Notes under the pieces: generated by a model | Database searches by the model: none | What the model saw: the letters and a program-made list of their open reading frames with translations, nothing else | Told to the model about the DNA's origin: nothing | Assembly (NCBI GenBank): GCA_903870415.1 | Contig: CAIQDA010000040.1 | Location: 1 to 40,863 of the forward strand | Direction of reading: 5' to 3' | Length of the DNA: 40,863 nucleotides | Origin: an uncultured delta proteobacterium | Lineage (GTDB): Bacteria > Myxococcota_A > Polyangia > Polyangiales > Polyangiaceae | Program-made: the position numbers and the translations under genes | In this document: piece after piece, positions 21,517 through 31,990 of the stretch | Position numbering within the stretch: the stretch's first letter is position 1 | Layout of the letters: every line of letters starts with the position of its first letter

Positions 21517-21533
21517 TTGAAAACTTTTTTCAA
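21517..21533. promoter_or_regulatory. AT-rich 17-bp perfect dyad overlapping the Fur-family stop codon
   Basis: TTGAAAA-ctt-TTTTCAA is a perfect 7-3-7 palindrome and stands out in GC-rich surroundings. Its right arm includes the stop of the Fur-family gene (21530-21532). It could be a weak terminator, or an operator or promoter element for the gene starting at 21470, whose ATG is about 55 bp away. Confidence 0.45.
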
Positions 21534-22015
21534 AGTGGGCGTTCGCTCCGGTGCGTGTGCCCATGGGGGGCCGCCGCTTGTCCTGGAATCGCGCTCGCGC
21601 AACCGTCGCAACGGCCACTCAATCGAATGTCGACGCGAGCTTCGCGCACGGCCTTAGGGGCCGAGTCGAGCGATCGCACCACGACCTCGACGTCGGGCAA
21701 GCAACGCAACGTGCCGCAGTCGTCGCAGAGAAAATGCGGGTGAGCCCGGTGTTCCGCCGCCTCTTCGGTCGAGCGAAAACGCCAGATGCGATCGCCCGCG
21801 TCGTGACGTGCCAGGAGCCCGACGCGGACGAGGTCGTTGAGGTTTCGAAACACGCTTGCGCGGTCGGCGAGGCCACCAAGAGCCTCAACCACCTCCGCGT
21901 GGCTTAGCGCGGCCGCGGTTCCGCCAAGGAGCTTCATGACCGCAACGCGCCCCGGCGTGACCTTCAACCCGGTCGCCCGGAGTCGCTCGCTGAGGGCGTG
22001 TTCGTTCGAGAGCAT
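21530..22015 (-). CDS. Fur-family metalloregulator (Zur-like candidate)
   Basis: 161 residues. The winged-helix domain (1-80) has LRATGLKVTPGRVAVMKLL, HAEVVEAL and the recognition region DRASVFRNLNDLVRVGLL. The dimer domain contains the hinge HRAHPHFLCDDCG with His89, His92, His94 and Cys97/Cys100, and a second CxxC at 136-139 (GRCDGCA), the structural zinc site of many Fur-family proteins. A short His-containing tail (HGHTHRS) is unusual. The protein should bind DNA when loaded with its metal. The neighbours (TonB receptor, COG0523 GTPase, importer, CDF exporter) favour zinc sensing, with nickel or cobalt possible. It diverges from the receptor gene with a dyad-bearing gap of 90 bp. Confidence 0.88.
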   Translation of the reverse strand: MLSNEHALSERLRATGLKVTPGRVAVMKLLGGTAAALSHAEVVEALGGLADRASVFRNLNDLVRVGLLARHDAGDRIWRFRSTEEAAEHRAHPHFLCDDCGTLRCLPDVEVVVRSLDSAPKAVREARVDIRLSGRCDGCASAIPGQAAAPHGHTHRSERPL

Positions 22016-22036: not shown

Positions 22037-22089
22037 TGCAATCGAATGGCAACCGCGACAAAGAGTCACTTGCAACAGTGATGCGATTG
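22037..22089. promoter_or_regulatory. Candidate Fur-family operator pair between the regulator and TonB receptor genes
   Basis: TGCAATCGAATGGCA (22037-22051) is an imperfect 15-bp dyad TGCnATnnnATnGCA, the size usual for Fur-family sites. Its core CAATCGAAT recurs inverted as ATGCGATTG at 22081-22089. One copy lies 22-36 bases upstream of the regulator's start and the other 17 bases upstream of the receptor's GTG. The role is inferred from position and shape. Confidence 0.4.
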
Positions 22090-22105: not shown

Positions 22106-24349
22106 GTGCGATGTGCGTTTCTCCTTCCGCTCCTGATGCTTCGCTCGGCGTTTGCGGCGGACCCTTCGCCCGAGGGCGCGTTGCCGGCGGGCGCTCATGC
22201 CGTGGCGGACGACGACTCCGACCCGCATGACGAGCACCAAAATCCCTCCGCGGAGGTGCCGAAGAAGGCCGACGACGTGGTGGTTCGTGGGCGAACGGCG
22301 CCGCCGAGTCGAGGCGCGTCGGACTTTCAATTGAAGGTTGGCGAACTCGCGAAGGTTCCTCGGGCGAACGCCGCTCACTTGCTCGAACTAGCCCCCGGGC
22401 TCTTCCTCACGAACGAGGGAGGCGAGGGGCACCCGGAGCAGATTTACCTTCGTGGCTTCGACGCGCGGCTCGGGCAAGAGCTCGAACTCACCGCCGGCGG
22501 CGTGCCCGTCAATCAAGCAGGGAATCTACACGGAAACGGTTACGCCGACCTTCACTTCATCGTACCGGAACTCGTCGAAGCGCTGCGCGTGGTCGAAGGT
22601 CCCTACGATCCGCGCCAAGGCAATTTCGCAGTCGCGGGCAGTGCGAACTACGAGCTCGGCCTTGAGCGCCGCGGCCTCACCGCCAAGGTGACGAAGGGCA
22701 GCTTTGGCACCGAGCGTCTCATGCTCTCGTGGGGGCCCGAAGGCTATGGTCGGCACACGTTTGCGGGGGGCGAGCTCGTGCGCAGCGACGGCTTCGGGTC
22801 GAACCGCGCATCGCAGCGTGGCGCCATCAACGCGCAGGTCGAAGGCGTCCTCCCCGGCACCGGCACATGGCGTCTTCTTGGAACGTCTTACGCAACGCAT
22901 TTCTCGTCTGCGGGCCTTCTGCGCGCGGACGACGTCGCCGCAGGACGAGTTGATTTTTTCGGCACTTACGACCCGCGCCAGGGGGGCGATGCGTCGCGCC
23001 ATTCGGTGTCCTTCGACGTGGAGGAGCGCGTCGCCGACACGACGTACCGCCTGCAGCTTTTCGGCGTGGCAAACACGTTGCGGCTCCTCGAAAACTTCAC
23101 GGGCTTTCTTCACGACCCGCAGGAGGCCGCGCAATCGCTCCACGGCGAGCGGGGAGACCTCATCGACTTGTCGGTGCAAAGCCGAACCGTGGGCCTTCGC
23201 GCGTCGAGCCGCTTGCGCTTCAAGTTCTTTGATTTGCCCCAGGAAATCGAACTCGGCGCCTACGCACGCGGCGACAACACGGACGGCCAGCAAGTGCGCC
23301 GCGAAGCGCGAACGAACGCGCCGTACCGCATCGACACCGACCTCAATGCCGCCCTGTCGAACATTGCACTCTACATCGACTCGTCCCTCAAAGCGGAACG
23401 CTGGTTTACGGTCCGCGGCGGCGTACGTGCCGAGTATTACGGTTACGACATCCTCGATCGATGCGCCGTTCAGAGCGTGAGGCAGCCTTCCCGCACGAAT
23501 CCCCCGGGCGATTCGAACTGCCTTACGCAGCAAGACCAAGGTCGATGGCGAGAGAATTTTCAGCGTTCCTCCACCGCAGCGAGCGTCGTCCTTCCGAGGG
23601 CGTCGCTGCTCCTAGGCCCCTTTGACGACTTCACGTTTTCCGCGAGCTGGGGTCGTGGCGCGCGATCGATCGACCCCGTGTACGTGAACGACGGCCTCGC
23701 CACGCCCTTCGCAGAGCTCGTCAGCTCCGAAATCGGCGCGAGCTGGCAGGTTGCCACGGAGGCGCACGCCATCGCGCTCCGAATGATTGCATTCCGCACG
23801 CATATCGATCACGACTTGCTGTTTGACGAAGTGGCTGGCCGCAACACGCTGTCGCAAGGAACGACGCGCATGGGGTGGGTCGGCTCGGCCCGCTACACGA
23901 CGGACGAGCTGGATTTATCCACGAGCGCAACGCTTGTGCGTGCAACGTTCGACGACACCGATCTCCTCGTACCCTACGCGCCGGACGCGGTCGTGCGCTT
24001 CGACGGAACTTACCACCGCGATCTGCTCGACGATTTTCATGGGTCCGCGTTGCACGGAAATCTCGCAATGGGGTCGGGCTACGTGGGGCGCAGGGCGCTT
24101 CCTTACGGCCAGCGCTCGGATGTGATCTTCACGGTGGACGGTTCCGCCGCTCTCGGGTGGCAGGGGCTTGACCTGACGCTGTCGGTGCAGAACCTCTTCG
24201 ACGCGCGCTACCGCCAGAGCGAGTACGTCTTTCCATCAAGCTTTTTTCCAAGCGAAGGAACGACGCTCGTGCCCGCCCGGCACTTTGCTGCGGGGGCCCC
24301 ACGCACGGTTCTTCTCAGCATCGGCATGACCGTGGGAGGTGCCTCGTGA
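22106..24349 (+). CDS. TonB-dependent outer-membrane receptor
   Basis: 747 residues. A short signal peptide (MRCAFLLPLLMLRSAFA) is followed by an acidic, His-containing segment (DDDSDPHDEHQNP) and a TonB-box-like DDVVVRG (about 56). The plug domain (about 70-165) includes HLLELAPGLFLTNEGGEG, IYLRGFDARLG, LELTAGGVPVNQ and ALRVVEGPYDPRQGNFA. A 22-strand barrel is expected from about 180; the last strand is RTVLLSIGMTV, and the protein ends GGAS, not in an aromatic residue. The GTG start is the only good one, since the frame is closed by a stop at 22079. It overlaps the next gene by GTGA. It should import a metal, metal chelate or similar ligand with energy from TonB-ExbBD encoded elsewhere. Confidence 0.92.
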   Translation: MRCAFLLPLLMLRSAFAADPSPEGALPAGAHAVADDDSDPHDEHQNPSAEVPKKADDVVVRGRTAPPSRGASDFQLKVGELAKVPRANAAHLLELAPGLFLTNEGGEGHPEQIYLRGFDARLGQELELTAGGVPVNQAGNLHGNGYADLHFIVPELVEALRVVEGPYDPRQGNFAVAGSANYELGLERRGLTAKVTKGSFGTERLMLSWGPEGYGRHTFAGGELVRSDGFGSNRASQRGAINAQVEGVLPGTGTWRLLGTSYATHFSSAGLLRADDVAAGRVDFFGTYDPRQGGDASRHSVSFDVEERVADTTYRLQLFGVANTLRLLENFTGFLHDPQEAAQSLHGERGDLIDLSVQSRTVGLRASSRLRFKFFDLPQEIELGAYARGDNTDGQQVRREARTNAPYRIDTDLNAALSNIALYIDSSLKAERWFTVRGGVRAEYYGYDILDRCAVQSVRQPSRTNPPGDSNCLTQQDQGRWRENFQRSSTAASVVLPRASLLLGPFDDFTFSASWGRGARSIDPVYVNDGLATPFAELVSSEIGASWQVATEAHAIALRMIAFRTHIDHDLLFDEVAGRNTLSQGTTRMGWVGSARYTTDELDLSTSATLVRATFDDTDLLVPYAPDAVVRFDGTYHRDLLDDFHGSALHGNLAMGSGYVGRRALPYGQRSDVIFTVDGSAALGWQGLDLTLSVQNLFDARYRQSEYVFPSSFFPSEGTTLVPARHFAAGAPRTVLLSIGMTVGGAS

Positions 24350-25131
24350 TGCGTCGAACTCTTGGCTTCGCCACCCTCGCGGCGTTCGTTGCAGGATGCA
24401 TGGGAACGACCGGTGGAGAGGTCGTTCATTTCGACGCAGCGTTGGCAGGTCCAGCCAACGTCGTCGACCATGCGCTTGCGTTCACGACGGGACGCGGCCT
24501 CGCGGTGCGCCTCACAAAGGCGACGCTCGTTGTGGGTGCGGTCTACATGAATCGCGCGAAGCCTATCCCCGTATCGCAAGAAAAAACCTGCATTTTAACA
24601 GGCTCCTACGTCGGCGAAGTTTTGGGGAGCGCGTCCGTCGACTTGCTGTCTGGACGACCCACGCGCTTTCCTGCCGGCGGGGCGGGCACGAACGAAGCCG
24701 CGGTGACGGGCGAACTTTGGCTGTCGACGAACGACATCAACGCGACCGACGACACGACGACGATCGCCGAGGTTGCTGGCGAGGTCACATTGGAGTCGGG
24801 AACGGTTCCGTTCGAAGGCAAAGTGTCGCTCGGCGCGAATCGCTTACCTGCCCAAACAGACCCGGCGCGACCCGGAGCTTACGCGCCGTGCAAGGCCCGC
24901 ATTGTCACGCCGATTCCCATCGCAGTGACTCTTGAAGATGCGGGATTTCTCACGGTTCGGGTGGACCCGCGCGCGTGGTTCACGACGGTGCTTTTCGACG
25001 ACCTGACGCGCGATGGTGGCGTTTTCACGTTTGACGATGGGAACACGAACGCGTCGAGCATCGGCCTCGCGGAGGGCGTGCGTGCGGCGCAGGGTGTGTA
25101 CGCCTTCGAGTGGGCGCCGCGGAGGCCATGA
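24346..25131 (+). CDS. Unknown lipoprotein coupled to the TonB receptor
   Basis: 261 residues. MRRTLGFATLAAFVAGC gives a clear signal peptide and lipobox. The mature part is mostly beta strands and Thr/Val/Ala-rich, with two cysteines far apart (EKTCILTG and YAPCKAR) that could form one disulfide. An acidic stretch NDINATDDTTTIAEV lies mid-protein. No family was recognised. The GTG start overlaps the receptor stop as GTGA (ATG 24349 is an alternative) and the stop overlaps the next start as ATGA, so receptor and both lipoproteins are likely made together. A surface or periplasmic partner of the receptor is inferred from this context alone. Confidence 0.78.
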   Translation: MMRRTLGFATLAAFVAGCMGTTGGEVVHFDAALAGPANVVDHALAFTTGRGLAVRLTKATLVVGAVYMNRAKPIPVSQEKTCILTGSYVGEVLGSASVDLLSGRPTRFPAGGAGTNEAAVTGELWLSTNDINATDDTTTIAEVAGEVTLESGTVPFEGKVSLGANRLPAQTDPARPGAYAPCKARIVTPIPIAVTLEDAGFLTVRVDPRAWFTTVLFDDLTRDGGVFTFDDGNTNASSIGLAEGVRAAQGVYAFEWAPRRP

Positions 25132-26351
25132 TGGACGCATTCCAAATGACTCGACGACACGTCCGTTTGGTTCTTGCGAGCGCTTCTGCCCTCGCGTTCG
25201 GGGCGTGCGCTGCGGCGCCAAACGCCGCGATGGCATCGCTCGTGATCACCGCGTCCGGTGAAGACGTGGCTCGCGACGGCTATGCATTTCCTCCTGCAAA
25301 TCCTGGGGCAGAAGCCTTCGTGGATGGCTGGTCCGTTGCCTTCGATCACGTGGTCGTGTCCGTCGGCGAAGTCACGCTCTCGGCGTCGCCGGATCTTTCC
25401 GCGAGCGACGAGCTTCGCACCGGCGCGGTGGTCGCTCGAGCAACGGGCCCGTGGCTCATCGACTTGGCGAAGGCTGGCGCGGCGCTCATGCCACCGACGG
25501 CCTCACACGTCGCGGCATCGGCTTCCGGCGCGCTCCCCGCGAGCGGTCGCGGCAGTCGGAGTGACGCTTCGGTGCGCGTCGTCACCTTCGAAAACCTCAA
25601 CGTGGCCGGCGACGCGTTTGATCCGGACGTGCGTTATGCCTTGGGTTTCGACACGGTTCCTGCGCGTGCCGACGCGGCGCTCGTGAACCTCGAGGACGAC
25701 GAGTCTCGCGCGCTCGCCCGTGCGATGACGACTCAAGGCGCGACGGTGGCGTACGTGGGGACGGCCCGATGGCGCGGGGGCGACGGGTGTGTGAGCTCCG
25801 ATCGGACCTACGACTGGAGCGCGGTTCCCACGACCGTTCACTTCTCCATGTTGTTCAAGGCCCCCGCCGCATACGTGAACTGCCAAAACTCCGACCTCGA
25901 GGGCAAGGCATTTTCCGGCGAAGAGCGTCAGCGCGGCGTGCAAATCAAGGCGGGGCAGGCGAATTTCGCGCAGCTGACGTTTCACACGGACCACGCGTTT
26001 TGGCTCACCGCCGACCACGACGCGGCGTTGCCATTCTTCGATCAGGTCGCCATTGCGGCAAAGGCCGATGGCACGGTCACGCTCGATGACCTGGCGGCGC
26101 TGGACCCGATTCGTCTGAAAGACCGTGCGGGCAAGACCCTCCCTTGGCGGAGCTGCCTCGCGGACGTGCCTGTAGCGGCGGGGTTGCGCCGCGTGGACGT
26201 GGGCAGCTTTGGTGTTCCCTTCGACCCGGCGCAGGCGCAGGAAAAAGCCATACGAAATCAGGCCGACGTCATGACGTACGTGCTTTCGGCGCAGGGCCAT
26301 CTCAACGAAGACGGGCTCTGTGCGCTGAAGCGAAACTACCCGTCGCCATGA
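25128..26351 (+). CDS. Unknown large lipoprotein coupled to the TonB receptor module
   Basis: 407 residues from ATG 25128, overlapping the upstream stop by ATGA (ATG 25131 also possible). Signal peptide RRHVRLVLASASALAFGAC with lipobox AFGAC. The mature protein has a phrase DGWSVAFDHVVVSVGEVTLSA, suggestive of a beta-sandwich, and a second half with conserved-looking His/Asp pieces (LTFHTDHAFWLTADHDAALPFFDQ) and four cysteines (GDGCVSS, VNCQNSD, RSCLADV, GLCALKR) that could make two disulfides. The HTDHAFWLTADHD cluster is a plausible metal or ligand site. No family could be named. Translation coupling suggests a stoichiometric partner of the receptor. Confidence 0.78.
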   Translation: MMDAFQMTRRHVRLVLASASALAFGACAAAPNAAMASLVITASGEDVARDGYAFPPANPGAEAFVDGWSVAFDHVVVSVGEVTLSASPDLSASDELRTGAVVARATGPWLIDLAKAGAALMPPTASHVAASASGALPASGRGSRSDASVRVVTFENLNVAGDAFDPDVRYALGFDTVPARADAALVNLEDDESRALARAMTTQGATVAYVGTARWRGGDGCVSSDRTYDWSAVPTTVHFSMLFKAPAAYVNCQNSDLEGKAFSGEERQRGVQIKAGQANFAQLTFHTDHAFWLTADHDAALPFFDQVAIAAKADGTVTLDDLAALDPIRLKDRAGKTLPWRSCLADVPVAAGLRRVDVGSFGVPFDPAQAQEKAIRNQADVMTYVLSAQGHLNEDGLCALKRNYPSP

Positions 26352-26449: not shown

Positions 26450-27607
26450 ATGACCATGGAACCGACTTCTTCGTTCGACGCGCACGAGCCGCTTCGCCAC
26501 CGAAAGGCTGTGCTCGGCTCTGCGGAGTCGAAGACGCGGGGCGTCGTTTATCTGACGTTTTTCGCTGCGATTGGCGAGGTCGCGTACGGAACTCTCACCC
26601 ACTCGATGGCGCTCGTCGCCGATGGCTGGCACATGGCCACGCACGTGGGCGCGCTCTCTCTGACGGCCGCCGCGTACTGGTACGCGCGTAAACACGCCAC
26701 ACGCGATCGCTTCAGTTTTGGCCCTGGAAAGATCTACGCGCTCGCGGGATTCACCAACGCGGTGCTCTTGATCCTCGCGTCGCTCTGGCTCCTTATCGAG
26801 TCCATCGAGCGCATGTTTCGTCCGCAGGAGATCGACTTTTCGCAAGCCATTCCTGTGGCGATCGTGGGGCTCGTCGTGAACCTCGCAAGCGCCGCGCTGC
26901 TTCATCGCGTGAGTGACGATCACGACGATTCCGCTGCGCACCACGGGCACCACCACGCTCATGGCGACCACGACCACGACCACGATCACGATCACGACCA
27001 CGATGGCCACGGCCATGCGCACGCCGAGCGCTCTTCACGTCGCCCCGCATCGAAGCATTCCGCGCTGACGCACGATCACAACTTGCAGGCGGCCTACCTG
27101 CACGTGATCGCCGATGCGCTCACGAGCGTGCTCGCGATCGTTGCGCTGGTTGTTGGACGGAACACTGGTTTTCTCCTGCTCGATCCGCTCATGGGCGTGG
27201 TCGGTGCCGTCGTCATCGCGCGATGGGCGTGGGTGCTTTTGGGCAAGGCTTCACGGCCGCTCCTCGACATGGTTCCGACGAACGTCGACTTGGCCGTCTT
27301 GCGCTCGTTGCTCGAAGAGGCAAGTGCGGGCGAAGTCGTCGACATGCACGTGTGGGAAATGGGGCCGAACGAGGTGTGTTGCCTCGTGGCACTCGCGGCG
27401 CACAAGCCCGTGGACATCGAGACGTGTCGACGCATTGTCGTGCGCGAGACCGCGGTCGATCACTTGACGATCGAGCTACGACCGTGCGCGGCCGACCACG
27501 TGAATGCGTCGAAGGTGCTGCAAACGGACGAGCGAAAGTCGCACCACGCGCATGACGCCGATGGCGGTCATGACGCCCATCACAAGCACGACGGGCACGA
27601 CGACTGA
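26450..27607 (+). CDS. dmeF: CDF-family metal exporter, DmeF-like
   Basis: 385 residues with six expected membrane helices. The TM2 metal site reads DGWHMATH (58-65), the His-containing form seen in DmeF-type Co/Ni exporters, and the TM5 site is HVIAD (His218, Asp222). Between TM4 and TM5 lies a loop with long His-Asp alternation (about residues 163-192), and the C-terminus ends in a second His-rich tail (HHAHDADGGHDAHHKHDGHDD). The soluble C-terminal domain includes VVDMHVWEMGPNEVCCLVAL. It should expel cobalt, nickel or zinc using the proton gradient. It lies 98 bp after the lipoprotein gene and may have its own promoter. ATG 26456 is an alternative start. Confidence 0.85.
   Translation: MTMEPTSSFDAHEPLRHRKAVLGSAESKTRGVVYLTFFAAIGEVAYGTLTHSMALVADGWHMATHVGALSLTAAAYWYARKHATRDRFSFGPGKIYALAGFTNAVLLILASLWLLIESIERMFRPQEIDFSQAIPVAIVGLVVNLASAALLHRVSDDHDDSAAHHGHHHAHGDHDHDHDHDHDHDGHGHAHAERSSRRPASKHSALTHDHNLQAAYLHVIADALTSVLAIVALVVGRNTGFLLLDPLMGVVGAVVIARWAWVLLGKASRPLLDMVPTNVDLAVLRSLLEEASAGEVVDMHVWEMGPNEVCCLVALAAHKPVDIETCRRIVVRETAVDHLTIELRPCAADHVNASKVLQTDERKSHHAHDADGGHDAHHKHDGHDD
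26966..27004 (+). repeat. His-Asp hexanucleotide repeat in the CDF gene
   Basis: Thirteen alternating Asp and His codons (GAC or GAT with CAC), forming a 6-bp tandem repeat with a few third-base changes. It encodes the metal-buffering loop of the exporter. Confidence 0.9.
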
Positions 27608-27614
27608 CGGGTCG

Positions 27615-29051
27615 CTATACGGCGGCGCTGCGGAAGGCGGCCTCGATGGCTTCGCGCGGCAAGTCTTTGCCGATGAGAACAAGATCGGTGCGGCGTGGCG
27701 CTGAGCCCCATGCGCCGATGGAGCTTGAGTCGGTGACCATGTGAACCGCTTGAATGACCACGCGTTCGTCGACGCCCTTGAACGCGAAGATGCCTTTGAG
27801 GCGGTAGAGGTTCGCTCCGTGGTCCCGGAGAAAGCCGCTGAACCATGCCTCGAACGTTTCGCGGTCGAGGTCGCCGACGTGCGCGAAAGCCATCGAGATG
27901 ACCTCTTCGGCGTGCGTGTGTTCGTGGCGAAAATGCCTGGCGTTTGTGAGCTCGAGAGCCGCGTCGCCTGCGTGGATGGAGAGCCCCATTTCGTCGCCGC
28001 ACGGCTCGGTGAAGATCGCGTAAGCGCCGCGCGCCGGGAGCGCGAGAGCCACGGTCTCTTTGCCATGCAGATGGACCGAGAACGGCATGCCCACTGCGGG
28101 AGAAGCGGGCACCGCGTCGTGAAACGCCACGAGCGCGTCGCGCGCCGTCGTCAGCAGGGGATCGGCACTCGCCTGCGCGAGGGGAAGCACGATGAAGCGA
28201 ACGTCGGCGTGGCCGTGGTGGTGATGGTCGTGCGCGTGACCGTGATCATGCGCGTGCTCATGCGCGTGGTCATCGTCGTGCGCGTGCTCATGCCCGTGGT
28301 CGTGCTCAGTGTGCTCGTGGCGCGCATGCTCGGGATCGAAGGAAATATGCACGCTGTCCGCCGATGAATCGAAGGTCGCGGCCCACTCGAACGGGTATTC
28401 GGCCTCGAGAAACGCGGGCTTCGTCGCAAGGGCCCGATCAAGATCGAAGCCGCCGACGTCGAGCACCGTGGCCACGGGAACGTTGCCGCGTTCGCAGCGA
28501 AGAATGCGCGCCATGGCGTTCATGCGGCGCAGGCGAGACTCGACGATTTCGAGCTCGCGCGCGTCGACGAGGTCGCACTTGTTCAAAACGAGGAGGTCGG
28601 CGAAGGCCACTTGCTCGCGCGCCTCACGGGTGTCGCCGAGGCGATCGAGCACATGCTTGGCGTCGACGAGGGTCACGATGCCATCGAGGAAAAAATCATC
28701 GCGAACGTCTTCGTCCACGAAAAATGTCTGCGCAACCGGGCCCGGGTCCGCCATGCCGGTGGTCTCAAGGACGATGCGATCGATCTTGTTTTTGCGCTTC
28801 TTCAAGTTCGAGAGAACGCGAATGAGGTCGCCGCGCACGGTGCAGCAGATGCAGCCGTTGTTCATCTCGAAGACTTCTTCGTCGACGCCGATGACGAGCT
28901 GCTGATCGACGCCGACCTCGCCGAATTCGTTCTCGATGACCGCGATGCGCAGGCCGTGGTCCTCGGTGAGGATGCGGTTCAGGAGCGTGGTCTTGCCCGA
29001 GCCGAGGAAGCCCGTGAGCACGGTGACGGGAATCTTGCCGCTGGTCGCCAT
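27615..29051 (-). CDS. COG0523 (CobW/ZigA-type) metallochaperone GTPase with His-rich linker
   Basis: 478 residues. The G domain shows Walker [11 protein letters not shown] (13-22), IENEFGE (39-45), the metal-binding CxCC motif in GCICC (66-70), [10 protein letters not shown] (96-105) and the base-specificity motif NKCD (157-160). A linker at 242-281 contains 20 histidines. The CobW C-terminal domain follows (about 282-470). Such GTPases hand zinc or another metal to client enzymes, usually under shortage. GGAGG four bases before ATG 29051 is a strong ribosome binding site. It is last in the importer operon (18 bp after the binding-protein gene) and converges on the CDF gene with seven bases between stops. 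Confidence 0.93.
28209..28328 (-). repeat. His-rich low-complexity coding stretch in the COG0523 gene
   Basis: Forty codons (residues 242-281) of which 20 encode His, mixed with Asp, Glu, Ala and Gly. DNA is quasi-repetitive (CATGCGCACGA-like units on the coding strand). It probably binds several metal ions. Confidence 0.85.
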
Positions 29052-29069: not shown

Positions 29070-29984
29070 TCAGCGCGTGGCGGAAAGCTTGGCAATGCGA
29101 TCGGCGAGGGCCTCGGCCGCATCAAGCATCGTGGGGCCTGGGTCCGATAGAAGATCGCCGTCGATCTCGGCCACACGTCCCGACAGGCAGGCCTCGGTGC
29201 CCGCGATTCCTTCGCGGTTGCAGAGCAGCGCGCCCATGCCGCGCTCGGTGACAATCCACGCGGGGTTCCGTTCCGCGACATCGATGGCGGTCCAGCTCGG
29301 CCAGCCCACGCGGTCACTCGCCGCGTCCGTGAGTCCGGCGCTTTCGATCACGTCGTGCCAGCTCGTGTCCCGTGCGCCGCCGGCCAAGAAGGAACCGTAG
29401 AGCGCAAGGTAAAGGGCCCGAGGTCTCGGTTTGGATGGGTCGGCGATGGTGGCCATTCGCCTGGAAAAACGGCTCCAAAAGCTCGCAGCCGCGGCGTCGC
29501 GATCGAGCAAAGCTCCGATGCGTGTGGTGGCGTCATGGAGCGCCTCGATGCCGGCGCTAGGACCCATGTCGAAGACCGGAAGGCCGGCCTCGCGAAGGCG
29601 CAACAAGCGACCGGGCGCGCCAGGGTTTGCGGTGACGATCACGTCGGCACGGAGCGCGGCGAGGGCGCTCACATCGTCGAGACTCGCGACCCGGGGCTTG
29701 CCTTGAAGCGCGAGGCACCAGGGGCGAACGCACGTTGCGGCGGAGGCCACCGCGCAAAGGCTCTCGGCACCGGCGAGCGCCACGATGAGCCTGTCGGCAA
29801 CCGTGGACGCAGACGCGATGCAATGCCTTGAGCCCGAGGAAAAGGCCGCACCGGATGCGTCGAAGACCGTGCGCGACGACGAGACCGCCTCGTCGCGAAG
29901 CGTGGAAGGCACGAGGGCGCGCGTGCCTGCGATAGAAAGAGAAAGGGTGCACACTGCAAGCAGTGCCTCGACACGGCGGTTCAC
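29070..29984 (-). CDS. ABC importer substrate-binding protein (FecB/BtuF type)
   Basis: 304 residues from GTG 29984, overlapping the ATPase stop as GTGA. The N-terminus (NRRVEALLAVCTLSLSIAGTRA) is a signal peptide. The body fits the two-lobed class III fold: SASTVADRLIVALAGAESLCAVA, then SLDDVSALAALRADVIVTANPG, AGLPVFDMGPSAGIEALHDATTRIGALL, and the second lobe from RALYLALYGSFLAGG with a C-terminal ALADRIAKL helix. Members carry haem, cobalamin or metal chelates. The first lobe has three cysteines (SLCAVA, ATCVRPWC), which is odd for this family and could be ligands or a disulfide pair. No lipobox was seen. Confidence 0.82.
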   Translation of the reverse strand: MNRRVEALLAVCTLSLSIAGTRALVPSTLRDEAVSSSRTVFDASGAAFSSGSRHCIASASTVADRLIVALAGAESLCAVASAATCVRPWCLALQGKPRVASLDDVSALAALRADVIVTANPGAPGRLLRLREAGLPVFDMGPSAGIEALHDATTRIGALLDRDAAAASFWSRFSRRMATIADPSKPRPRALYLALYGSFLAGGARDTSWHDVIESAGLTDAASDRVGWPSWTAIDVAERNPAWIVTERGMGALLCNREGIAGTEACLSGRVAEIDGDLLSDPGPTMLDAAEALADRIAKLSATR

Positions 29985-30730
29985 GATTCCTCGATGGTCG
30001 CGAACGCGTGGAGCGATGTGTCGGTGGCTCGGACGCCCCACACGCGTGCGAGCATGCTCTCCGTGAGCGTGGCACTTGGCGGTCCCGAGGCGAGGCGCGT
30101 TCCCTCGGCGATCACATGCACCTCGTCGGCCAAGCGGGCTGCGTGGGCGAGGTCGTGCAGCACCACGAGGACCACGCATCCCGCGCGAGCGAGGTCGCGA
30201 AGCAGCTCATCGAGGCGGAGCGAAGCCCTGAGATCCAGCGCAGAAAATGGCTCATCGAGGAGCAGAACAGGCGCTTCGGTGGCGAGGGCGCGCGCAATGA
30301 CCGTGCGTTGGCGCTGGCCCGCCGAGAGCTCAGCGAAGGAGCGTTCGTGAAGGTCTTCGACGCCGCAGCGTGCGAGCGCGCGACGGGTCTTGAGTTCGAC
30401 CGTGGCCCTCGATTCGCCGCGATGAGCGCGAGCGAGAGAGACCACATGGGCGACGCTGACGTCTTCCGGAATTGCGGGCGATTGAGGAACCCATGCGACG
30501 AGTCGGGCGCGGCTCGACGGCGACGCGTCGTGGAGCGCGTGCTCGCCAAAGCGAACGGCGCCACGAGAGGGCTCGAGCCCAGCGAGCGCGCGCAAAAGCG
30601 TGGATTTACCCGCGCCATTCGGACCAAGAATCGCGTGAAGCGTTCCCTGCGCGCACAAGGCTTTCACGTCGCGCAGCACGACGGCGGAACCGCGGCACAC
30701 CTCGTGAAGGTCGAAGGCGAGGTCACCCAC
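29981..30730 (-). CDS. ABC importer ATPase (FecE/BtuD/HmuV type)
   Basis: 249 residues from GTG 30730. Walker A GPNGAGKST, Q-loop WVPQSP, signature LSAGQRQR, Walker B VLLLDEPFSALD and the H-loop histidine in VVLHDLAHAA are all present in order, with spacing usual for FecCD-coupled ATPases. It powers uptake through the permease encoded upstream. The start overlaps the permease stop by eight bases; the frame remains open further upstream, but that part belongs to the permease gene. The stop overlaps the binding-protein start as GTGA. Confidence 0.92.
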   Translation of the reverse strand: MGDLAFDLHEVCRGSAVVLRDVKALCAQGTLHAILGPNGAGKSTLLRALAGLEPSRGAVRFGEHALHDASPSSRARLVAWVPQSPAIPEDVSVAHVVSLARAHRGESRATVELKTRRALARCGVEDLHERSFAELSAGQRQRTVIARALATEAPVLLLDEPFSALDLRASLRLDELLRDLARAGCVVLVVLHDLAHAARLADEVHVIAEGTRLASGPPSATLTESMLARVWGVRATDTSLHAFATIEES

Positions 30731-31775
30731 GAAGCGCCTCGCCGTGTGCGCCTGCGCGACGCCCGCGAAGAATGAGGAAAAAGAACGGCGCGCCTGCGAG
30801 CGTCGTAATCGCGCCCGCGGGCACGGACACCAAGTGCGCGAGAGCCACGGCAACCCGATCGCTCGCGACGACGATGAGACCTCCAGCGAGGGCCGCCACG
30901 GGCACGAGGCGTCGATGGGAGCCGCCGACCACCCTGCGTGTGAGATGCGGAGCCAAAAGCCCAACAAACGCGAGCTGGCCCCCAAGAATCACCGATGCGG
31001 TCGTGCCGCAGGCGATCCATCCGACCATGGAGGTGCGTGCAGCTTGCACAGACATTCCAAGAGCCTGCGCTTCGTCGGCGCCGAGCGCGAGGAGATCAAG
31101 GTCCTCATGCCGCAGCATCGCGGCCACGAAGCATCCAGCGGCGAGGGGCGTTGCGATGCGAAGCTCCGGCATGCCCGCACCCGACAGGTCGCCGAGGCCG
31201 AGCATCACGAGCGCGCGACCGAGGTGCGGATACTCCTGCGCAAGGGCTGTGAGAAGGGTGGAGGCGCCGGAAAAGACTGCAGAAAGCAGGAAGCCCGTGA
31301 GCAGGAACTCGAGGGCCGTTGCACGCCGTGTCGCGGCGAGAAGAATCGCGAGCGACAGCAGCGCACCGACGAGCGCTCCGACGACGGACGCTCCTGCGCG
31401 AGAGGCGAGCGACAACGTTCCGAGGGCACCGAGTGCGAGCCCGATCTTCGCGCCTAAAAAAGCGCCACCGCTCGTGCCGAGAATCGCCGGGTCCGCGAGA
31501 GCATTCGACGCCACGGACTGAGCGAAGACCCCCGCCGTGGCGAGCGCGACGCCTGCCACGAACGCCGCCAGAATGCGTTGCGCGTGGAGCGAGGCAATCG
31601 TGGTCAACGGTGCCGAGGCTCCCGCCGTCAGCGCTGGCATCGCGTGCACGATGCATGCAAATGTCATCGCGAGAAGCGCTGGCAGAAACCAGGCAACGGG
31701 ACGACGGGTCCAACGACAGTGGTGGATCGAGTTAGACGAATCAGGTGATTGAGGCGAGAGAGGCGACTGAGGCAT
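30723..31775 (-). CDS. ABC importer permease (FecCD/BtuC family)
   Basis: 350 residues, about nine or ten membrane helices. Family marks are RILAAFVAGVALATAGVFAQ, the conserved PAILGTSGGAFLGA, VMLGLGDLSG, and the ATPase-coupling and C-terminal region GGQLAFVGLLAPHLTRRVVGGSHRRLVPVAA (in overlapping parts), with VPAGAITTLAGAPFFFLIL near the end. BtuC-type permeases import cobalamin, haem, siderophores or metal chelates. ATG 31775 is the best start; upstream sequence contains hairpins and tRNA-Glu. First gene of a four-gene operon ending in the COG0523 GTPase. Confidence 0.92.
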   Translation of the reverse strand: MPQSPLSPQSPDSSNSIHHCRWTRRPVAWFLPALLAMTFACIVHAMPALTAGASAPLTTIASLHAQRILAAFVAGVALATAGVFAQSVASNALADPAILGTSGGAFLGAKIGLALGALGTLSLASRAGASVVGALVGALLSLAILLAATRRATALEFLLTGFLLSAVFSGASTLLTALAQEYPHLGRALVMLGLGDLSGAGMPELRIATPLAAGCFVAAMLRHEDLDLLALGADEAQALGMSVQAARTSMVGWIACGTTASVILGGQLAFVGLLAPHLTRRVVGGSHRRLVPVAALAGGLIVVASDRVAVALAHLVSVPAGAITTLAGAPFFFLILRGRRAGAHGEALRG

Positions 31776-31794
31776 CGGCGGGCCTAAAATGCAG

Positions 31795-31849
31795 CAACGA
31801 CGCAAACCCGAGGGTGATGCGTCGTTGGTGTCCCTGCGAGAGGCAGGGA
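31795..31849 (-). terminator. Two hairpins between tRNA-Glu and the importer operon
   Basis: Reading the minus strand after tRNA-Glu, the first stem is TCCCTGC / GCAGGGA with a 5-nt loop (31831-31849). The second is a perfect 10-bp stem CAACGACGCA / TGCGTCGTTG with a 13-nt loop (31795-31827), followed by CTGCATTTTA. The second is a likely tRNA terminator with a poor T-run. A regulatory leader role for the importer operon is an alternative. Confidence 0.55.
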
Positions 31850-31871
31850 GCTCATGCGAGGCCACGAATCT

Positions 31872-31947
31872 TGGCGTCCCCAAGGGGATTCGAACCCCTG
31901 TTCGCGGCGTGAAAAGCCGCTGTCCTGGGCCTCTAGACGATGGGGAC
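31872..31947 (-). tRNA. tRNA-Glu (anticodon UUC)
   Basis: 76 nt with an encoded CCA end. Acceptor arm GTCCCCA / TGGGGAC, discriminator G, anticodon stem GCGGC / GCCGC with loop TTTTCAC giving anticodon TTC, and T-arm CAGGGGTTCGAATCCCCT with the TTCGAAT loop. The body resembles proteobacterial tRNA-Glu closely. It lies downstream of rpsT on the same strand. Confidence 0.97.
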
Positions 31948-31990
31948 AAGGCTTGCATTGGGCCGTGAAGCCCATGCGAGCATGTCGCTC

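Follow-up and report, generated by a model that had tools for sequence, protein, structure and literature searches.

A predicted Zur-regulated outer-membrane zinc-acquisition module of Myxococcota comprising a TonB-dependent receptor and two lipoproteins with an MbnP-like predicted fold

How receptors carry zinc through the outer membrane is understood in few cases, and to our knowledge the descriptions of ZnuD and of the Zur-regulon receptors of Caulobacter include no obligate lipoprotein pair. MbnP has so far been described as a copper protein; its WxW motif is said in the account of the structure to form the copper site by conversion of Trp to kynurenine. Genes for MbnP are found near TonB receptor genes in methanobactin operons (PMC3621798), where MbnT is the receptor partner. 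Receptors of the BtuB-BtuG type, which take up B12, are likewise assisted by lipoproteins (PMC10404256). A further zinc-linked exported protein, ZepA, is secreted and carries an H-X2-9-H-F/Y-H motif and a PEP-CTERM tail (PMC10957091). A literature search limited to an open library found nothing on zinc acquisition in myxobacteria.

The window (the whole stretch of DNA analysed, 40,863 nucleotides) corresponds to contig C40 of a draft genome of 4.69 Mb (G000), the relatives of which are Myxococcota. It includes genes for a TonB-dependent receptor and two lipoproteins, LP1 and LP2 (Table 1). From sequence comparison and structure models, these three genes are predicted, with a probability of about 0.62, to constitute a module for zinc acquisition at the outer membrane that is regulated by Zur and includes two lipoproteins of the MbnP fold.

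Table 1. Coordinates of the module, its candidate operator sites and neighbouring genes in the window
Feature	Position	Strand	Basis or remark
Divergent Fur-family regulator, predicted Zur	21530..22013 (ATG ~22013)	-	Pfam FUR 33.5 bits, cut-off 23.1
Zur-box-like palindrome 1, ATGCAATCGAATGGCAA	22036..22052		2 mismatches to TTGCAA-N5-TTGCAA
Zur-box-like palindrome 2, TTGCAACAGTGATGCGA	22070..22086		2 mismatches to TTGCAA-N5-TTGCAA
TonB-dependent receptor (plug and barrel), operon start	22106..24349	+	Pfam Plug and TonB_dep_Rec above cut-off
LP1 lipoprotein, predicted MbnP-like fold	24346..25131	+	Lipobox at codon 24397; AF2 model; Cys co-variation
LP2 lipoprotein, predicted MbnP-like fold with inserts	25128..26351	+	AF2 model; invariant His; Cys pairs
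DmeF-type cation-diffusion facilitator	26450..27607	+	NCBIfam DmeF 339 bits, cut-off 250; neighbour, not conserved with the module
COG0523 GTPase with His-rich tract (zinc-metallochaperone type)	27615..29051	-	cobW and CobW_C; functional neighbour

The three open reading frames are all present and open in the window. The stop codon of the receptor gene (TGA, 24347-24349) overlaps the LP1 start codon (GTG, 24346; an alternative ATG lies at 24349), and the LP1 stop codon (TGA, 25129-25131) overlaps the LP2 start codon (ATG, 25128), as the original prediction had it. The LP2 frame is open from 25110, and a further ATG, at 25131, has GGAGG five bases upstream. Both products have a signal peptide and a lipobox Cys, which in LP2 is encoded at 25206. 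The description of the genes as translationally fused was inaccurate; they overlap and are probably translationally coupled, and the receptor, LP1 and LP2 may be made in a fixed ratio. Over 29 loci, the median distance from the receptor stop codon to the codon for the lipidated Cys of LP1 is 50 nt, with 26 of them at or below 90 nt; the tight receptor-LP1 coupling is conserved. The spacing between LP1 and LP2 is looser across relatives than that between the receptor and LP1.

Relatives of the receptor (E<=1e-70) are encoded in 78 of 379 genomes of the phylum, and homologues of LP1 and LP2 in 38 and 67, respectively, with the weaker LP2 matches being partial. In a species-representative collection, 41 LP2 loci were detected, almost all of them under myxobacterial, deltaproteobacterial or proteobacterial labels, and the cultured Minicystis rosea DSM 24000 is among the carriers; a plasmid search for LP2 found none. 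Neighbourhoods were obtained using phmmer and profiles of LP1 and LP2. In the resulting 83 non-redundant loci, which were collected via LP1, LP2 or the receptor and hence give ratios for this family rather than for all receptors, 60 of 63 LP1 genes immediately follow a receptor of this type, 60 of 67 receptors are accompanied by LP1, and 59 of 74 LP2 genes are found no more than 4 kb from the receptor or LP1. Of the three LP1 exceptions, two are located at contig ends, and the third is divergent. Of the 15 other LP2 copies, five are likewise located at contig ends, and four have a COG0523 gene nearby. The order also varies, with LP2 preceding the receptor in L065-L067 and divergent in L075. 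This comparison points to the receptor, LP1 and LP2 as a gene set conserved in Myxococcota, and it answers the concern raised in the original prediction that homologues of the lipoproteins might mostly occur away from TonB receptors. The proposed link of both lipoproteins to the receptor and to a metal was also supported, and zinc can be singled out as the most likely metal (see below).

Two to three copies of LP2 are present in G347 and G193 (L062, L081, L069, L082 and L083), some of them with no receptor nearby, and such copies may be solo zinc-binding lipoproteins. A metagenome-assembled genome titled Klebsiella pneumoniae (L124, CAMDBH010000024.1) carries the myxobacterial module, and its title is probably wrong.

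Searches of Pfam and NCBIfam with LP1, LP2 and their homologues gave no convincing family, in agreement with the earlier remark that neither matched a familiar one, and searches of solved structures by sequence gave nothing relevant. LP1 and LP2 are, as judged by these comparisons, conserved but unnamed families in Myxococcota. AlphaFold2 models, for which alignments built in this analysis were used as input, were confident (pLDDT 91 for LP1 and 89 for LP2) and mainly beta. For both models the single outstanding structural match was MbnP of Methylosinus trichosporium (PDB 7l6g), with Z 9.6 over 194 residues for LP1 (next best 5.0) and Z 8.7 over 199 residues for LP2 (next best 4.6). Foldseek also matched LP1 clearly to MbnP (E 3.8e-4), but not LP2 (E 0.79). 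The profile match between LP1 and LP2 is weak (E 0.0019, probability 14.5%), and the suggested homology of the two relies mainly on the shared predicted fold.

Profile comparison of LP1 or LP2 with MbnP gave no match. No member scored above the cut-off of PF20243 or of the NCBIfam MbnP model, the nearest being one LP1 member at E 0.11 and no LP2 member. The WxW motif, present in 24 of 24 canonical MbnP sequences, occurs in 1 of 29 LP1 and 3 of 35 LP2 sequences, in none of them at a conserved position, and a gene for the di-heme protein MbnH was found near the module at one locus only (L090). As profile, WxW motif and MbnH partner all fail and only the predicted fold agrees, LP1 and LP2 were not filed as MbnP. 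A canonical MbnP (G000:C367:26097-26735, L142; PF20243, E 5e-36) is encoded elsewhere in the genome of the window, beside an MbnH-type di-heme gene and unlinked to the module. The analogy with SusD-like lids that had been suggested was rejected, the models being beta-rich and matching MbnP, with no match to a SusD profile or Pfam family. One LP2 member matched ZrgA (E 0.0016), probably by way of its His tract, as a DHDHDH tract is present in a homologue.

LP1 has no conserved histidine. In LP2, each of 35 homologues retains H260, H263 and H365, and D262, W266, D279 and N367 are nearly or fully invariant as well. The cluster HTDHAFWLTADHD, which had been pointed out together with four cysteines in LP2, corresponds to mature residues 260-272 and is, by its conservation, a real motif; the four cysteines are likewise present, in addition to the lipidated one. 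The three histidines form a putative metal site. Cysteines in both lipoproteins always appear or vanish together in pairs, namely C65-C165 of mature LP1 (19 both, 10 neither, p 5e-8) and C195-C317 (21 both, 14 neither, p 4e-10) and C226-C372 (33 both, 2 neither, p 0.002) of LP2, the significance being inflated by relatedness. Hence, they probably form disulfides, one in LP1 and two in LP2, and a role of the LP2 cysteines as metal ligands is unlikely. HDHDHD tracts, which are typical of zinc-handling proteins, are inserted in the LP2 homologues of L062 and L075, in mid-protein or at the C-terminus.

A palindrome search of the regions upstream of the receptor genes revealed TTGCAA-N5-TTGCAA. Promoter zones, here those of the receptor, LP2, COG0523 and fur-type genes, contain exact boxes at a density of 85 per Mb, as compared with 0.9 per Mb elsewhere (~90 times denser); for boxes with one mismatch the two densities are 289 and 10 per Mb. 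In the window, four sites with <=2 mismatches were found against 0.54 expected, and two of them lie in the 92-bp gap between the receptor and fur-type genes. Palindrome 1 has a PWM score of 18.1, as compared with 7.5 for the 99% null. A Zur-type operator is thus predicted in the module promoter. Among receptor promoters only 17 of 61 exceed the 95% null, so control by the box is not universal, or not always detectable.

Five relatives were searched whole for the box. Away from the module, the exact boxes include those between an ArsR and a DUF1826 gene (G347, L196) and between the gene for ribosomal protein S18 and an operon that contains DUF1826 (G233, L197). A comparative study placed DUF1826 in Zur-regulated COG0523 clusters (PMC2770081). 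As the S18 protein has its CxxC, it does not represent the usual zinc-free paralogue and argues less strongly for zinc. In G007, the sole two sites with <=1 mismatch in 5.2 Mb flank the module locus, and in L088 a solo LP2 gene and a COG0523 gene diverge around an exact box. Genome-wide boxes in the AT-richer G260 and G106 are probably mostly due to chance, several having unrelated neighbours. A box with one mismatch at 4150 of L208 (G233:C63) separates the gene of an ArsR-type regulator from that of a His-rich membrane protein, which has no Pfam match and is possibly another zinc transporter. The genome of the window has two sites with <=1 mismatch, both away from the module, and the one inspected is inside a coding ORF; the box is shared with COG0523 and DUF1826 genes in relatives, but such sharing was not seen in this genome. 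A search of the genome for DUF1826 gave no match, but neither did the control of that search anywhere.

The Fur-family protein encoded in the window gave weak NCBIfam scores to PerR, Irr, Fur and Zur, all below cut-off. It is one of two to three Fur proteins of the genome, two of which are clear. The COG0523 protein is the only strong cobW-type protein of the genome, the other match being weak. Near the module, fur-type genes were found in 14 and COG0523 genes in 12 of the 83 loci. Genes for a substrate-binding protein, an ATPase and a FecCD-type permease (29070-31958, minus strand) are next to the COG0523 gene. By family they encode a metal-chelate or B12 importer, and the set is not conserved with the module in relatives. 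It need not be the zinc importer, as ZnuA-type proteins are encoded elsewhere in the genome. No cobalamin riboswitch is present.

Taken together, the distribution of the boxes, their DUF1826 and COG0523 neighbours, the two sites of G007, the presence of Fur-family and COG0523 genes in the window and the lack of a cobalamin riboswitch make zinc the best supported and most likely metal. The linkage of the three genes and the invariant histidines and His tracts of LP2 homologues also speak for the module as a whole. Against zinc count the two mismatches in each box of the window, the flanking DmeF exporter of the Co/Ni type, the FecCD type of the next importer, and the identity of the best structural relative, MbnP, as a copper protein. 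The last point leads to the reading that LP1 and LP2 are divergent Cu(I)-binding MbnP proteins, which work with the receptor as MbnP does with MbnT. This would agree with the single outstanding fold match, with the vicinity of MbnP and TonB receptor genes in methanobactin operons and with W266 of LP2, located beside the His pair and kept in 34 of 35 homologues. However, the loss of WxW, the near absence of MbnH, the failure of profile comparison, the separate MbnP-MbnH pair of the same genome and the zinc-type operator and neighbours make a copper module unlikely.

The adjacent DmeF exporter and FecCD-type ABC importer could instead indicate that the receptor takes up cobalt, cobalamin or a different metal chelate. 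Neither accompanies the module in relatives, the ABC genes are on the opposite strand, and the boxes mark COG0523 and DUF1826 genes with no cobalamin riboswitch in evidence; this explanation is rather improbable. A module of the iron type, with a Fur box in place of a Zur box as operator and an iron chelate as ligand, could be argued from the regulator, which is called FUR at the family level only and scores weakly against all subfamilies. Yet a stronger separate Fur is encoded in the genome (C211, 122 bits), and the neighbours of the boxes in relatives, COG0523 and DUF1826, also make an iron module quite improbable.

In the zinc-acquisition module proposed here, a Fur-family protein (a Zur) would release the operator upon zinc shortage, and the receptor and lipoproteins would be made together. 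LP1 would be a dedicated partner bound to the receptor, and the lack of conserved ligands along with its near-obligate linkage suggests a structural role on the receptor. LP2 would bind zinc or a zinc complex via H260, H263 and H365 and pass it to or from the receptor, being located either outside as a lid or inside, in the periplasm, as a receiver or relay. TonB energy would move zinc across the outer membrane, and COG0523 GTPases would distribute it inside the cell. Whether this amounts to an undescribed outer-membrane zinc importer, in which a TonB receptor works with two MbnP-fold lipoproteins, one a near-obligate partner and the other with a new three-His zinc site, is in our estimate an even chance. 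If so, the MbnP fold would be a general metal-handover module for TonB receptors, serving zinc here and copper in methanobactin systems. The analysis links two unnamed protein families to the predicted MbnP fold and gives them a testable role, for which M. rosea offers a cultured carrier, and it supplies a candidate Zur operator for Myxococcota.

Among known systems, MbnP (PF20243 / TIGR04052; 7l6g) with MbnT resembles the module in the predicted fold of LP1 and LP2 and in that a secreted, metal-linked protein frequently has its gene close to that of a TonB receptor (PMC3621798). LP1 and LP2 differ in having no conserved WxW, no MbnH partner (except at one locus) and no profile match, in being two tandem lipoproteins under a zinc-type operator, and in the HxDH...HLN histidines that are LP2's own. 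The ZnuD and Caulobacter Zur-regulon receptors (PMC4176598) have in common with the window that a TonB receptor and COG0523 belong to a predicted Zur regulon. A search of the window's receptor against solved receptors as a check of ZnuD kinship gave no phmmer match at E<=1e-3. Like ZepA (PMC10957091), LP2 is exported and Zur-linked by prediction, with three conserved His and a beta-sandwich part. Unlike ZepA, it has HTDHxFW (HTDHAFW in the window) and a distant GHLN, a lipid anchor and the terminus NYPSP, and membership in ZepA was rejected as LP2 has neither the ZepA motif nor the PEP-CTERM tail. BtuB-BtuG-type systems (PMC10404256) also combine a receptor gene with genes for presumed ligand-capturing lipoproteins; no fold match to a lid protein was found for LP1 and LP2, and their ligand is probably zinc, not B12. 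The nearest working analogues are BtuB-BtuG for the assistance by lipoproteins and MbnT-MbnP for the fold.
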